Positions 12,979 to 17,883 of a stretch of DNA of 64,000 bases are shown one piece after another. The notes beneath the pieces are model-generated. The model was given only the letters and a program-made list of their open reading frames with translations, did no database searches and had not been told where the DNA came from. Position 1 is the stretch's first letter. Every line of letters starts with the position of its first letter. This DNA is from Corallococcus macrosporus DSM 14697 (lineage in GTDB: Bacteria > Myxococcota > Myxococcia > Myxococcales > Myxococcaceae), in the NCBI RefSeq assembly GCF_002305895.1, contig NZ_CP022203.1, positions 908,501 through 972,500 of the forward strand. The letters are read 5' to 3'. Position numbers and translations under genes: made by a program.

Positions 12979-14091
12979 TTAGAAGCGGCCCACCATCGAA
13001 ACGCCTTTGCCGCCCTGCGGCGTCGTGAGCGGCGCCAGCGCCACCTGGGGCGCATCCGGCGCGTCGAAGTTCCGGGTGAGGTACGTGGTGAGGGCCAGGC
13101 CGCCGAGTACGCCGAAGCCGCTGCCCACGAGGATGGCGTCGCCCGCGTCGTTGCCCGCGGTGAGGTAGACGGCGCTCGCGCCCACCAGCCCGCCGAGGAT
13201 GCCGCCCGCGTCGATGATGAGCATGCGGCCCCGGGACACCGGCACGTACTTCGACAGGATGGCCATCGACAGGATGCCCGCGGCGGTAGCGCCCAGCTCG
13301 ACGGCGAAGAAGTCCTGGGTGTCACCCCCGTCCGCAGCGGCGAGGAACAGCGCCGTCACCGCGCCCGCCCAGAGGCCGCCCGAGTTGGCCAGGGACACCT
13401 GCCCCGACGTGGGGTTCACCAGGTGCGCCAGCAGGACGCCCACGCCGGTGAAGCCCGCGCCGCCGAGCACGGCGGCGCCGAGCGCGTTGTCTCCGTCCAG
13501 GTCGAAGGCGAGCAGGGACGCGACGCCGAACCAGAAGCCCCACACGGTGCCGGAGTTGATGACGGCGGCCTGGCCGTCCGTCACACCGCCCCGGGTGAGC
13601 AGCAGCGAGCTGGCGGCGCCCGCGCCCGCGCCCAGCAGGGACACCGCTGCGAAGCCCTGGCCGCTGCAATCGCCGATGGCGCACAGGAGGATGCCTTGCG
13701 CCGCGCCGTGCAGCGTCTGCACCACGACGAGCGAGGCCCGCGCGGCGCTGGAGTGGGGCTCGCGTCCCACCTCGCTCGCGGCGGCGTTGGCCAGCCGTCC
13801 CCCGGGCGTGAGCCGGGTTCGGGAGAGGCGGGCCATCTCGGTGGCATAGGGGTGCTGCGGACAGGCCACGAGCACCCGCTCGAACAGCGCCAGCGCCTTC
13901 GCGTCGTCGCCGCTCACGAGCGCATCGAAGCCCGCCGAATAGTCCGCCTCGGAGCCCGGCGCGCAGGCCTCGGGCGTGGACACCAGGGGCGGCGCGGTGA
14001 CCGTCTCCGGTGTGGTGGCCTCGGAAGGGGGAGGAGCCTCCGGGGACTGCGCGGCGAGCGTGGCGAGCAGGAGGAGCGTGGCGGGCGTCAT
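12979..14091 (-). CDS. Glycine/alanine-rich multi-pass membrane protein, function unknown
   Basis: A 370-residue protein with a signal peptide (MTPATLLLLATLAAQ), a Pro/Glu/Thr-rich linker, a single TPR-like helix pair (residues about 50-90: YSAGFDALVSGDDAKALALF), and then a long run of weakly hydrophobic Gly/Ala/Leu segments (about residues 115-340). These could be 8-9 membrane helices or an unusual beta-structure. No enzyme motif is seen. It converges with the SDR gene only 7 bases away, with no obvious terminator. I do not recognise the family. Confidence 0.7.
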   Translation of the reverse strand: MTPATLLLLATLAAQSPEAPPPSEATTPETVTAPPLVSTPEACAPGSEADYSAGFDALVSGDDAKALALFERVLVACPQHPYATEMARLSRTRLTPGGRLANAAASEVGREPHSSAARASLVVVQTLHGAAQGILLCAIGDCSGQGFAAVSLLGAGAGAASSLLLTRGGVTDGQAAVINSGTVWGFWFGVASLLAFDLDGDNALGAAVLGGAGFTGVGVLLAHLVNPTSGQVSLANSGGLWAGAVTALFLAAADGGDTQDFFAVELGATAAGILSMAILSKYVPVSRGRMLIIDAGGILGGLVGASAVYLTAGNDAGDAILVGSGFGVLGGLALTTYLTRNFDAPDAPQVALAPLTTPQGGKGVSMVGRF

Positions 14092-14161
14092 GGCGCACGC
14101 CACTGTATGCGAAGCGCGGCGGTGGCATGTGCCGGTCATGCCACCACCTGTTCGCCGTGCG

Positions 14162-16711
14162 TCAGCGCGCGGCCAGCGTGTCGACGTGCTCGCGCAGGGC
14201 CACTTCATTGCCCAGCCGGCCGTTGAGTCCGGTCAGCGGCTTCGCGGCCTGCTCGATGCGGCCCCGGGTGCGCGGGCCCGCCGCGGCCAGCCACGCCACG
14301 CCCAGCGCCAGCTCCGCCACCCGCGCATCCCCGCCGAGGCTCGCCGCCAGGGACAGCAGGGCCTCCACCGCCTTCTTCACCTGCGCGCCGTGCAGCGGGT
14401 GGCTGCTGGTGATGCCCTCGCGCAGCAACGTCAGCAGGGCCAGCGCCGTGGCGCGCGCCTGGCGCACGGGCTCTGCGCCCTCGCCGGTGCCTTCCCAGAG
14501 CCCGTTGGCGAGCTGCCGCGACAGCAGGCTCTCCGCGCCCGTGTCGACACCGCCCTCGGCCGCCGGCGCCTCCGCGAGGTACGCGTCGGATTCCTCGGCC
14601 TCCGAATCCGCCATCACCTTCGACGGTGGCGCATCGCGGAAGAAGCTGGAGAGGATTCCTCCCTTCTCGCGCTTCTTCTTGGCGGCCTTGCCCTGCTCGC
14701 GCGACTCGACCCTCATCACCATCCAGTCCGTGGTGCCGTCATCGTCATCCATGGAGGAAGCCCACTGTGTGGGGGCGGGTGGAGGCGCTCCCGGGGTGAT
14801 GCGCCGCAATGGGACCTGCGGCCGAGGCACGGCGCCACTCGCCGCCAGCCGTCCGCGGCGAGGCGCTGCGCCACCGAATGCGCCTTCCTCCTTGTTCTTC
14901 GCGCCGAACATGTCCCAGCCCGCGGGCGCATTCACGGGGATGACGCGCGTCTTCGCCTGCCCCGAGTTCCGCCGTTCGCCCTTGCGCTCCTCCACCACGA
15001 CGAACGAGGTGTACCGGGTGACAAGCTGGTGCGCGACGGCCAGCTCGACGATGCGCTGCTTCATGGACTCCGCGCGGCGTCCGGTGAGCTGCGCGGCCTC
15101 CCAGCCTCGGATGCGCTCGGCGGCCCACAACTTCTCCACCGCCGGCCGGTCCGACGCCGCCGGAAGGTCCACGCGAACGGTGAGCGAGAAGGGCTCCCGC
15201 CCCGAGCGCCCGCGCAGCGTCACCGTACCCGTCCCAGGCGAGGCATAGCGGCCCAGCAGCGTCCAGGGCACGCCATCCACCAGGGGCGGCAGCTCGGCGG
15301 GCGCCAGCTCCACGCACTCCACGCCGTCGAAGTGCGCCTCCAGCTCGGTGACACGCGGGGCCAGCGCGCGGGAGAACTGCGCCACCACCTTGTCGTCGAT
15401 TCGCTCGCCCGGGTGGATGAACTCCACGTCTCCGCCCGTCTGCTTCGCCAGGTCCCGCAGCAGCACGTCGCTGACGTTGGTGCCAATGCCAAACGAGTAC
15501 ACCCGCGCCGTCTTCCGAGCTTCGAGCACCGCGCGCAGAATCTCCGACTCGTTCCCCACCTGGCCGTCCGTGAGCAGCACGATGACGCCGTCGGGCGCCG
15601 CCTGCACCGCGGCGCGCATGGGCGCGAGCAGCTCCGTGCCACCGTTCGCGTTCAGCGCGGCCACCCAGCGGTCCGCCTCTTCGAGCGTGCGCTGCGTGAA
15701 GGGCACGGGCTGGGGCTGGAATGTCTGGAAGCGATTCTCGAACGCGATGACGTTGAAGCGGTCGCCCTCGCGCAGGTGGCGCAGGCACAGCCGGAGCGCG
15801 GCCTGGGCCTGGGGCAGGCTGCCGCCGGCCATGGAGCCGGAGACGTCCACGACGAACACCACCTCCTGCTTGGGCGGCGCGGAGGCCAGGGCCAGCAGGT
15901 CCGGCACCACGGTGAGCGCGAAGGTGCCCGGGCCCGTATCGCCGTTGCGGTGCGTGACGAGCGGGGTGAACACCGCGCTCGTGTCCGGGCTGCGCAGGCT
16001 GAGCACCAGGTCGCGGTCCAGGGCCACCTCGCCGCGCGAGAAGCCCACGCGCACGCGGGTGCCTTCCTCCCGGGTGACGGTGACGGCGTGGGACGGGCTC
16101 TCCACCACCACCTCGCGGCCCAGGTCCACGAGCAGGTCCATGCGCAGGCCGTAGTGCACCTCCCCCACGGGCGGGGTGATGCGGTCCGCGTCCGGCACCT
16201 GCGTGGTGGGCTCGTCACGGCCATGTCCGGTGCGGTCGCCCGTGGTCGCGCCGGGGATGTAGCGAGGCGCCACCAGCGTGGGCAGCATCCAGCGCACGCT
16301 GCCTTCCTCGGCGGTGACGGGCTGGAGGAACTCCACCTCCACCACCGTCTCCTCATAGGGCAGCAGGTTGCCCACCTGGGCGGTGAAGACGTTTCGGCGC
16401 TCCTCGTCGAGCAGCGCGGCGCCGTGGCCGGCCGTGACGGCGTCGTCGTAGGCGCGGAAGGCCTCCTCGCGCTCCCGCACCACGCCTTCGATGCGCCGCC
16501 CCGCGCACGTCATGGAGAAGGCGGAGAGGGTGGCATCCGAGGGGAGGGGGAAGGTGTAGATGGCCTCCACCGGTTGGTACTCCTCGTTGCGGTAGCGCTG
16601 GCGAACGCGGACGCGCGCGTGGCCGCCGAGGAGCTCGCCCGTGACTTCGACACCCTGGAGGGGGACCTGCGTGCCGTTGCGCGTGTACAGCCCAGTCTTC
16701 TCGTTGGTCAT
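14162..16711 (-). CDS. VIT and von Willebrand factor A domain protein
   Basis: An 849-residue protein. A VIT domain (about residues 8-135: VEVTGELLGGHARVRVRQRY, YTFPLPSDA, EREEAFRAYDDAV) precedes a VWA domain with a complete MIDAS motif, DVSGS at residues 289-293, plus LLTDGQVGNES. The second half has a Gln/Arg helical part (MKQRIVELAVAHQLVTRYTSF), a Pro-rich linker, a Lys-rich patch and a C-terminal helical region. This matches bacterial relatives of inter-alpha-trypsin-inhibitor heavy chains. No signal peptide is visible, so it is probably cytoplasmic. Its ATG overlaps the stop of the MerR gene (ATGA) and has a strong GGGAGAAG site, which indicates a two-gene operon under MerR control. Confidence 0.9.
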   Translation of the reverse strand: MTNEKTGLYTRNGTQVPLQGVEVTGELLGGHARVRVRQRYRNEEYQPVEAIYTFPLPSDATLSAFSMTCAGRRIEGVVREREEAFRAYDDAVTAGHGAALLDEERRNVFTAQVGNLLPYEETVVEVEFLQPVTAEEGSVRWMLPTLVAPRYIPGATTGDRTGHGRDEPTTQVPDADRITPPVGEVHYGLRMDLLVDLGREVVVESPSHAVTVTREEGTRVRVGFSRGEVALDRDLVLSLRSPDTSAVFTPLVTHRNGDTGPGTFALTVVPDLLALASAPPKQEVVFVVDVSGSMAGGSLPQAQAALRLCLRHLREGDRFNVIAFENRFQTFQPQPVPFTQRTLEEADRWVAALNANGGTELLAPMRAAVQAAPDGVIVLLTDGQVGNESEILRAVLEARKTARVYSFGIGTNVSDVLLRDLAKQTGGDVEFIHPGERIDDKVVAQFSRALAPRVTELEAHFDGVECVELAPAELPPLVDGVPWTLLGRYASPGTGTVTLRGRSGREPFSLTVRVDLPAASDRPAVEKLWAAERIRGWEAAQLTGRRAESMKQRIVELAVAHQLVTRYTSFVVVEERKGERRNSGQAKTRVIPVNAPAGWDMFGAKNKEEGAFGGAAPRRGRLAASGAVPRPQVPLRRITPGAPPPAPTQWASSMDDDDGTTDWMVMRVESREQGKAAKKKREKGGILSSFFRDAPPSKVMADSEAEESDAYLAEAPAAEGGVDTGAESLLSRQLANGLWEGTGEGAEPVRQARATALALLTLLREGITSSHPLHGAQVKKAVEALLSLAASLGGDARVAELALGVAWLAAAGPRTRGRIEQAAKPLTGLNGRLGNEVALREHVDTLAAR

Positions 16712-17202
16712 GGCTTCTCCCTTTCCTGGAACTCCGCGATGAGGGCGCGAACGCGTTCCGCGAGCGCCCGGGTCTTCGTGTCCGCTGCTTCCGAGACGTG
16801 CAGCTCCAGCCCCGGGAGCAGCTCCCAGCGCTCGTAACGATTCAGGCCCGTGGCCGGTCTTCGCGGCGCTTGCGGCGCCACCGTGGCGGGCCCCGGCGCG
16901 GGCTGCGCGTACACCGGGGGCGTGGGTGTCGCGTCCGAGTCGGCGAGCTGTCGCAGCTCCTCCAGGCTCAGCCGCTGCAGCTCCGCCTGGATGGCATCCA
17001 GGGGAAGGAACCGCGCCTGCAGGACGCGGATGGCCTTGAGCCGCACCAGGTGCTCTTCCCCGTACACGGTGTCGGGGCCCCGGAAGGGGGGCGCGGGGAG
17101 CAGTCCGCGTTGGACGTAGTAGCGCACCGTCCGCGGCGAGACGCCCACCGCCTCGGCCAGCTCCGCCAGCTTCCATTCGCTCTGTGTCTTCGGCGTGCTC
17201 AC
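16708..17202 (-). CDS. MerR-family transcriptional regulator
   Basis: A 164-residue regulator. The N-terminal winged helix-turn-helix spans about residues 10-75 (LAELAEAVGVSPRTVRYYVQ), followed by the MerR coiled helix (RLKAIRVLQARFLPLDAIQ). The C-terminal part has a Pro/Ala linker and no cluster of metal-binding cysteines, so a metal sensor is unlikely. The start is GTG at 17200-17202. A good promoter ends only 7 bases upstream, so the transcript may be leaderless. It is the first gene of the operon with the VIT/VWA gene and is likely to regulate itself. Confidence 0.9.
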   Translation of the reverse strand: MSTPKTQSEWKLAELAEAVGVSPRTVRYYVQRGLLPAPPFRGPDTVYGEEHLVRLKAIRVLQARFLPLDAIQAELQRLSLEELRQLADSDATPTPPVYAQPAPGPATVAPQAPRRPATGLNRYERWELLPGLELHVSEAADTKTRALAERVRALIAEFQEREKP

Positions 17203-17209
17203 GGTTCAG

Positions 17210-17238
17210 ACAGTACGACTCGACATTGATGGTGTCAA
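17210..17238 (-). promoter_or_regulatory. Promoter of the merR-VIT/VWA operon, probably leaderless
   Basis: On the minus strand, TTGACA (17233-17238) and TACTGT (17210-17215) are spaced exactly 17 bases apart. Seven bases separate the -10 box from the GTG start codon, so transcription would begin at or next to the start codon. Confidence 0.6.
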
Positions 17239-17282
17239 GTTGCCACTGGCTGGTTCGCGACAGTTCCTCGACAGCGGGCAGC

Positions 17283-17320
17283 CTCGGCAGTGGACCTGTC
17301 TCGACAGTGCCACTGCCGAG
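17283..17320. repeat. Large inverted repeat with nested inner palindrome, likely operator
   Basis: Two perfect 11-base arms, CTCGGCAGTGG (17283-17293) and CCACTGCCGAG (17310-17320), flank a 16-base centre that itself contains CTGTC-TC-GACAG. The motif CGACAG recurs at two further places just to its left. The element sits upstream of the MerR operon promoter and in front of the divergent DUF2721 gene, as expected for a regulator-binding site. Confidence 0.55.
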
Positions 17321-17421
17321 TCCTGACACCGGGCGTTTGCTTGTTCGCTGTCATGAACTGGGGGCGAGGGAGGGGCACGGAGGTGTTGCGCCGGCCGGTG
17401 CGGGGTGGAACAGAGGAGGGC

Positions 17422-17883
17422 ATGAATGGCGTCGCGGAAGGCATGGACCTCTCCTCCATCCGGCTCATCGGCACGGCGGTGACGCCCGCGGTGATGGTGT
17501 CGGCGTGTGGCATCGTGGCGACGGGGTTGGACAACCAGATTGCGCGGATGACGTCGCGCATCCGGGAGATGGTGCGGGAGTGGCGCCTGCTGCCGGAGGA
17601 GCACGCCCGGCGCGCGGTGCTGCGTCAGGAGGTCGCCATCCTGGACCGGCGGCACGCCATCCTCGCCCGGGCCATTGGCTTCACGTACACGGCGCTGCTG
17701 GCCTTCGTGGTGACGTCGCTGCTGTACCTGACGAAGCGGCAGACGCAGATTCCAGAGGTGCTGCCGGTGGTGTCCTTCTCGGTGGGCGTGGTGCTGCTGG
17801 GCGCGACGGCGCTGCTCGTGCTGGCGTCGCTGCGGCTGAGCCGGCGGGCCATCAAGCTGGAGCGGCGGGAGCTCTTCGAGTAG
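17422..17883 (+). CDS. DUF2721 family membrane protein
   Basis: A 153-residue protein of the DUF2721 type. A first hydrophobic segment (LIGTAVTPAVMVSACGIVATGL) runs into NQIARMTSRIREMVREWR, a charged helix typical of the family. Two further membrane segments (FTYTALLAFVVTSLLYL and VVSFSVGVVLLGATALLVLASL) follow. No function is established for the family. The ATG at 17422 has GAGGAGGG just upstream and is preferred over upstream in-frame starts. It converges with the slipin gene, with 6 bases between the stops. Confidence 0.8.
   Translation: MNGVAEGMDLSSIRLIGTAVTPAVMVSACGIVATGLDNQIARMTSRIREMVREWRLLPEEHARRAVLRQEVAILDRRHAILARAIGFTYTALLAFVVTSLLYLTKRQTQIPEVLPVVSFSVGVVLLGATALLVLASLRLSRRAIKLERRELFE

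Follow-up and report, generated by a model that had tools for sequence, protein, structure and literature searches.

A putative self-regulating leaderless promoter of a merR-VIT/VWA operon in Corallococcus macrosporus DSM 14697 and related bacteria

A stretch of 64,000 nucleotides from the 8.97-Mb genome of Corallococcus macrosporus DSM 14697 (the window) was analysed around a merR gene and the gene of a VIT/VWA protein that follows it. Promoter-like boxes, their spacing, the merR start codon, an inverted repeat and the gene order were found to be conserved by comparison of sequences. It is proposed that the merR-VIT/VWA operon is transcribed from a leaderless promoter and regulates itself, with MerR probably acting as a repressor that covers the -35 box and the spacer. 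The genes and promoter elements are as follows.

14162-16711, minus strand: VIT/VWA protein gene, 849 aa, ATGA overlap with the merR stop (Pfam VIT 1.3e-30, VWA_3 4.5e-22)
16708-17202, minus strand: merR, 164 aa (Pfam MerR_1 5.6e-16); in the model a MerR winged helix, a low-confidence linker and a C-terminal beta-beta-alpha unit
17200-17202, minus strand: GTG start codon of merR and predicted 5' end of the transcript; GTG or ATG exactly 7 bases past TACTGT in 28/28 loci
17203-17209, minus strand: 7-base gap CTGAACC between the -10 box and GTG
17210-17215, minus strand: -10 box TACTGT, invariant in 28/28 loci; with the next base it reads ACTGTC, a possible outer half-site
17216-17232, minus strand: 17-base spacer
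17233-17238, minus strand: -35 box TTGACA, invariant in 28/28 orthologous loci
17422-17883, plus strand: divergent DUF2721 gene (Pfam DUF2721 2.1e-23), with GAGGAGG at 17413-17419

Two samples of loci were used. With the MerR protein as query, matches were obtained in 41 of 61 genomes, and after exclusion of L029 and L030 (39-40% identity) from 30 loci, 28 clear orthologues with a locus were retained (67-100% identity, own locus included). In addition, public genomes were scanned for MerR relatives with two search patterns, one of which was the peptide RTVRYYVQ, and the best 80 of 162 loci were used. Removal of 11 repeats (L031-L039, L053 and L054, whose contigs have the same lengths as those of L004, L006, L007, L008, L019, L025, L012, L010, L011, L028 and L018) left 69 distant loci. 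Group 1 consists of 13 further Myxococcaceae/Archangiaceae loci (L040-L052) and group 2 of 27 other Myxococcota-like loci (L055-L062 and L064-L082), among them some bins titled Myxococcaceae. Group 3 holds the remaining 29 loci, mostly from other phyla by title, some titles being doubtful, and includes six titled Myxococcota, Myxococcales or Deltaproteobacteria (L083, L086, L089, L090, L102, L103). Two further labels attracted attention: L034 (BNCN01000008.1), titled 'Comamonas sp. KCTC 72670', is a Myxococcus-type locus (merR 84%, DUF2721 93% identity) and looks mislabelled, and L100 (CAMAVY010000287.1), from a bin titled 'Klebsiella pneumoniae', carries merR and VIT/VWA genes that are only distantly related (33% and 37% identity), its label being doubtful.

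Promoter boxes and the leaderless start

The initial annotation had described TTGACA and TACTGT with a 17-base spacer, 7 bases before the GTG, and both letters and coordinates were confirmed on the minus strand. When the upstream regions were aligned, 28/28 orthologous loci had the same two hexamers 17 bases apart and a gap of 7 bases to the start codon, and TTGACA-N17-TACTGT occurs a single time in the whole genome. Since TACTGT shares only 3 of its 6 bases with TATAAT, a consensus promoter scan listed no promoter before merR; the case for the promoter therefore rests on conservation. On that basis TTGACA-N17-TACTGT-N7-GTG (17238-17200, minus strand) is taken to be a real promoter.

Among the best 80 of 162 loci, the -10 box of group 1 is TACTGT in 11 and TAGTGT in 2 of the 13 loci, and in the other Myxococcota-like loci (L056-L082) it begins with C in 23/25, for example CAGGAT or CATCTT. 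The relaxed pattern TTGACA-N17-YANNNT-N5..10-start could be identified there in 13/13, 25/27 and 8/29 loci of groups 1-3, compared with a background of 51/14370 RTG codons in which the true cases are counted.

That the message is leaderless, as the initial annotation had suggested, is strongly supported by the comparison. In the distant loci, again from the best 80 of 162, TTGACA ends 28-33 bases upstream of an in-frame start in 51/69 (13/13, 25/27 and 13/29 by group), and in 40 of these 51 the distance is 30 or 29; these counts and those of the relaxed pattern accept whichever in-frame start lies close to the predicted position, which favours a match, but the 28/28 result is independent of that. 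As background, TTGACA ends 26-34 bases upstream of 60/14096 RTG codons in the distant loci (0.4%, true cases counted in). Of the 13 group 3 matches, two come from records titled Myxococcales; the titles of the other eleven are Acidobacteria, Gemmatimonadetes, Armatimonadetes, Latescibacterota, Puniceicoccales or Hyphomonadaceae. The Puniceicoccales match was counted solely through a TTG start, the kind of start on which L105 depends. No TTGACA at 28-33 bases from an in-frame start was found in 18/69 distant loci, and in L090 and L091 it lies at 42 and 66 bases.

With the -35 box some 30 bases upstream of the start codon, the transcript is expected to begin at that codon itself. In the C. macrosporus locus an in-frame TGA lies two codons upstream of the GTG, so that the MerR protein cannot begin farther upstream; this applies to 9/28 loci in all (L001-L007, L009 and L010, own locus included). 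The reading frame is open farther upstream in 18/28 orthologous loci (L019 was read by hand), so that no nearby stop speaks against an earlier start in those. Between promoter and merR start, where only 7 bases follow the -10 box (CTGAACC in the own locus), a Shine-Dalgarno site is absent; AGGAG one base from the start in 2/28 orthologous loci (L025, L028) was judged too close. Overall, a leaderless merR message is well supported by these comparisons. Unlike merR, the DUF2721 gene has a Shine-Dalgarno-like GAGGAGG 2 bases upstream of its ATG.

MerR, its partner and the operator candidate

The N-terminal winged helix of MerR matched PF13411 with 58.9 bits compared to a cut-off of 21.6, which places the protein in the MerR family. 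RTVRYYVQ is invariant in 58 alignment rows, an invariance that is partly selection because the peptide served as a search pattern. In members of the MerR family a long antiparallel dimer helix directly follows the DNA-binding domain. The monomer model obtained here (mean pLDDT 80.5, pTM 0.51) shows a short helix at residues 80-88, a low-confidence proline-rich linker, strands at 123-129 and 132-137 and a helix at 142-161. The C-terminal beta-beta-alpha unit carries RWELxPGLELH, which is conserved in close orthologues, with a consensus of LAPGLELHV in the wider alignment. A Foldseek search with this model gave no match at E 0.001, and the best matches were MerR-family chains.

On the evidence of gene order, the VIT/VWA protein is the usual partner of MerR: among the best 80 of 162 loci a VIT/VWA relative was identified at 73/80, in L084 by its VWA part only. 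In the 61 non-repeat loci of that set with a strong match, the gap between merR and the partner gene is at most 60 bases in 55/61, and the D-x-S-x-S motif is present in 61/61. In one genome (L026/G015) the two genes are fused in a single open frame of 1162 codons and the usual stop/start overlap is lost; no further fusion was found among the best 80 of 162, nor another frame of that length among those listed. A 953-codon plus-strand frame at 13976-16837 lies over the VIT/VWA gene, lacks a Pfam match at E 0.001 and was rejected as a gene. In some loci without a VIT match the neighbours are a VWA protein without VIT (L084, L086, L089), a GSDH-type protein near L095 and an M16 peptidase at L104. 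L095 and L104, both alphaproteobacterial MerR relatives, keep GACAGT/ACTGTC half-sites despite the non-VIT/VWA downstream gene.

The following elements were identified upstream of merR.

17218-17240, no strand assigned: core operator candidate ACTTGACA-N7-TGTCGAGT, an inverted repeat over the -35 box and spacer; GACA in 28/28, TGTC in 26/28
17244-17250, minus strand: upstream half-site with consensus GACAsTG, degenerate GCCAGTG in the own locus; CA and TG invariant in 28/28
17255-17309, no strand assigned: array of extra half-sites, CGACAG at 17258, 17269 and 17302 and CTGTC at 17296
17283-17320, no strand assigned: 38-base nested inverted repeat, above chance in the own locus and apparently lineage-specific
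17299-17328, plus strand: partly conserved block, including one half of the 38-base element, from an alignment of 9 close loci

Apart from the two promoter boxes, ACTTGACA-N7-TGTCGAGT is the most conserved stretch in the 28 orthologous loci. The GACA of the upstream half-site is not invariant (A at the second position in 19/28), and ACTGTC at the -10 box forms a fourth half-site, with TGTC in 23/28. CGACAG had been noted three times, and three copies were indeed observed on the plus strand compared to a shuffle mean of 0.27 for both strands. Upstream of the core, YGACAS/STGTCR was counted 84 times in the 28 orthologous loci (shuffle mean 14.2, maximum 25), at positions that vary by lineage. 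In the distant loci, taken from the best 80 of 162, GACAS/STGTC was counted in about 96 bases upstream of merR: 52 compared with 18.5 in shuffles for the 13 group 1 loci, 73 compared with 19.1 for the 27 group 2 loci and 67 compared with 13.6 (maximum 24) for 28 group 3 loci, L094 being left out. GACA-N3..9-TGTC was present in 13/13, 20/27 and 17/28 of these loci, with shuffle means of at most 1. The promoter-operator layout seems to be kept in most of the related bacteria compared and in some from other phyla.

When same-genus genomes were searched with a 44-base composite site (150 first-look candidates scored per genome), 23/23 had a single strong match, which lay at merR; the remaining matches were weak or fell on the opposite strand of the merR site. 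Likewise, the exact ACTTGACA-N7-TGTCGAGT pattern has a single match in the own genome, at merR. A wider regulon was rejected, as the next match among the 150 first-look candidates scored in the own genome reached 15 bits (E 0.2). A repeat with one mismatch at 7092996 was rejected as a second site: long frames are open on both strands there, and the position is therefore probably coding. The eight loci without a VIT domain match among the best 80 of 162 contain 20 half-sites (shuffle mean 4.3, maximum 10), this set including L110, which ends just past merR with the partner unseen; the GACA-N3..9-TGTC pair is missing in 3/8 of them (L084, L086, L089). Since half-sites are still enriched in these loci, the site appears to follow merR and not the partner, which together with its uniqueness points to binding by MerR itself. 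Autoregulation by MerR, as had been suggested, is plausible through the inverted repeat inside the promoter, although not to the point of being called tight; the 38-base repeat that had been assigned to it hardly holds as its element (see below).

Proposed regulation and alternative explanations

In the preferred explanation, sigma-A RNA polymerase would use TTGACA-N17-TACTGT and start at the first base of the GTG, and the message, beginning with its start codon, would be translated without a Shine-Dalgarno site. A MerR dimer would bind ACTTGACA-N7-TGTCGAGT, sharing bases with the -35 box and filling the spacer, and so block the polymerase. The extra half-sites (GACAsTG, ACTGTC at the -10 box and the variable upstream array) may add cooperative binding. 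Translation of the VIT/VWA protein would be coupled to that of MerR through the ATGA overlap, and the VIT/VWA protein could sense a signal or relay it to MerR. The reasons for preferring repression to activation are the length of the spacer, 17 bases, and the perfect -35 box. Only tentatively, and with some doubt, this is extended to a two-protein module of MerR and VIT/VWA across several phyla, in which the VIT/VWA protein is the signal-dependent partner and selection has favoured the leaderless start as a means of control in its own right; if true, the leaderless start would let ribosomes read the operon even when Shine-Dalgarno initiation fails.

It is unlikely that MerR instead activates its own operon, by binding the same repeat and, like classical MerR proteins, reshaping a weak promoter. 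The repeat does overlap the -35 box and spacer, near the classical MerR position, and the weak, mostly CANNNT -10 boxes of the other Myxococcota-like loci (23/25, best 80 of 162) could mean that an activator is needed. However, classical metal-responsive MerR promoters have, according to the available part of PMC5045206, a spacer of 19-20 bases and a dyad between the -35 and -10 boxes with its centre 7-8 bases from the -35 end, whereas here the spacer is 17 bases in 28/28 loci, the GACA-N7-TGTC dyad overlaps the -35 box with its centre 4 bases from the -35 end, and the -35 box is a perfect TTGACA.

Binding of the repeats by another regulator, with a leaderless promoter but MerR acting elsewhere, is improbable. 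This is the situation of CvkR, a protein reported, in the available part of PMC9938897, to leave its own promoter core unbound. The composite site, however, was found only once in each genome, at merR, and the same half-sites precede distant merR relatives, also where the neighbour genes differ.

There is equally little chance that the 38-base element and the half-site array are the control region of the divergent DUF2721 gene. The block at 17299-17328 does lie between both genes and, followed in the direction of DUF2721, looks by eye like the merR operator; read on its minus strand, GAC, GGCA, ACTGTC and AGA are invariant in the 9 close loci. However, no -10 box could be seen at the block by eye and none was given there by the consensus scan. 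Among the best 80 of 162 loci, a DUF2721 relative adjoins merR in L032-L054 save L042, L044, L048, L050 and L053, whose sequence ends near merR; none was found next to the merR-VIT/VWA pair in L055-L110, where the half-sites before merR are still enriched. The DUF2721 gene is probably a neighbour outside the merR system.

The 38-base nested inverted repeat is present exactly at 17283-17320, where, with a score of 12, it ranks above every other inverted repeat in the 225 intergenic bases; this score was reached in 0/500 dinucleotide shuffles and in 2/563 other windows of the 64-kb sequence. Contrary to the expectation that the same repeat precedes the operon in relatives, a finder that counts ungapped repeats detected one as strong in 1/28 loci, the own genome only, with upstream stretches in L004 and L028 of 186 and 82 bases, both shorter than 225. 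The close relative L005 has by eye an interrupted version, CTCGGCAGCAG with CTGCTG-AG-CCGAG, which this finder does not count, and the element may therefore be somewhat older than one genome. Although it exceeds chance in its own locus and holds conserved half-sites, it is very unlikely to be the main operator and was rejected as such, given the single locus in 28 and a right arm without ungapped pairing in the other 8 of the 9 close loci. It is best seen as a local arrangement of half-sites.

Comparison with known systems

MerR regulators are known, as are leaderless messages and spacer operators; their deeply kept combination with a VIT/VWA partner was not found in the literature searched. 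Titles and abstract beginnings in the open-licence literature on MerR with VIT/VWA, leaderless MerR and Myxococcus start-site maps contained no account of the operon or promoter, and PMC9430717 and PMC7694542, in the parts available, had no bearing on either.

The metal-responsive activators MerR, CueR, CadR/PbrR and ZntR share with the present system the N-terminal domain family and an operator in or beside the promoter spacer. They differ in spacer length, in the position of the dyad centre and by the C-terminal beta-beta-alpha unit of the model obtained here, and none of the NCBIfam metal-regulator models matched the protein above cut-off.

CarA/CarH of Myxococcus xanthus and relatives have a C-terminal B12-binding domain and an operator of tandem 11-base direct repeats, for which the available part of PMC8156234 reports the half-site nAnnTnnACAn. 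They resemble the present system in the MerR-type DNA-binding domain and, on the explanation preferred here, in repression through a large operator over a sigma-A promoter, and their half-site loosely fits CAACTTGACAC of the merR operator. In the -35 half-site the T and ACA are fixed and the A is present in 14/28; the upstream direct copy lies 14 and not 11 bases away. The merR operator candidate is an inverted repeat with scattered half-sites and not a series of tandem direct repeats. A CarH-type B12 regulator was rejected, since no B12-binding Pfam match was obtained at E up to 1 and the protein has only 164 aa.

For the partner, TIGR03788 (marine proteobacterial sortase target, VIT/VWA) matched residues 26-604 with 400.7 bits, below the cut-off of 551.65, so that the protein is not a member by that test. 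To our knowledge, bacterial VIT/VWA proteins are mostly without a known role. A promoter-operator common to the whole family, and partly to other phyla, would tie a large VIT/VWA group to a dedicated MerR regulator, and could serve as a simple reporter for finding the VIT/VWA signal. The leaderless start seems to have been retained by selection over long times and not by accident.

The nearest published leaderless MerR gene, within the literature as available, is CvkR (Alr3614), a MerR-type repressor of type V-K CRISPR-associated transposons with 150 residues and a leaderless mRNA (PMC9938897). It represses cas12k and tnsB through the motif AnnACATnATGTnnT, and the available part of the report mentions no VIT/VWA partner for it (PMC9938897). 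CvkR ranked 8 among the fold matches to the MerR model (prob 1.00, E 5.7e-3), and, as far as that part of the report goes, it shares with the system described here a MerR-type protein, a leaderless mRNA, predicted in the present case, and an inverted-repeat motif at the promoters that it represses.
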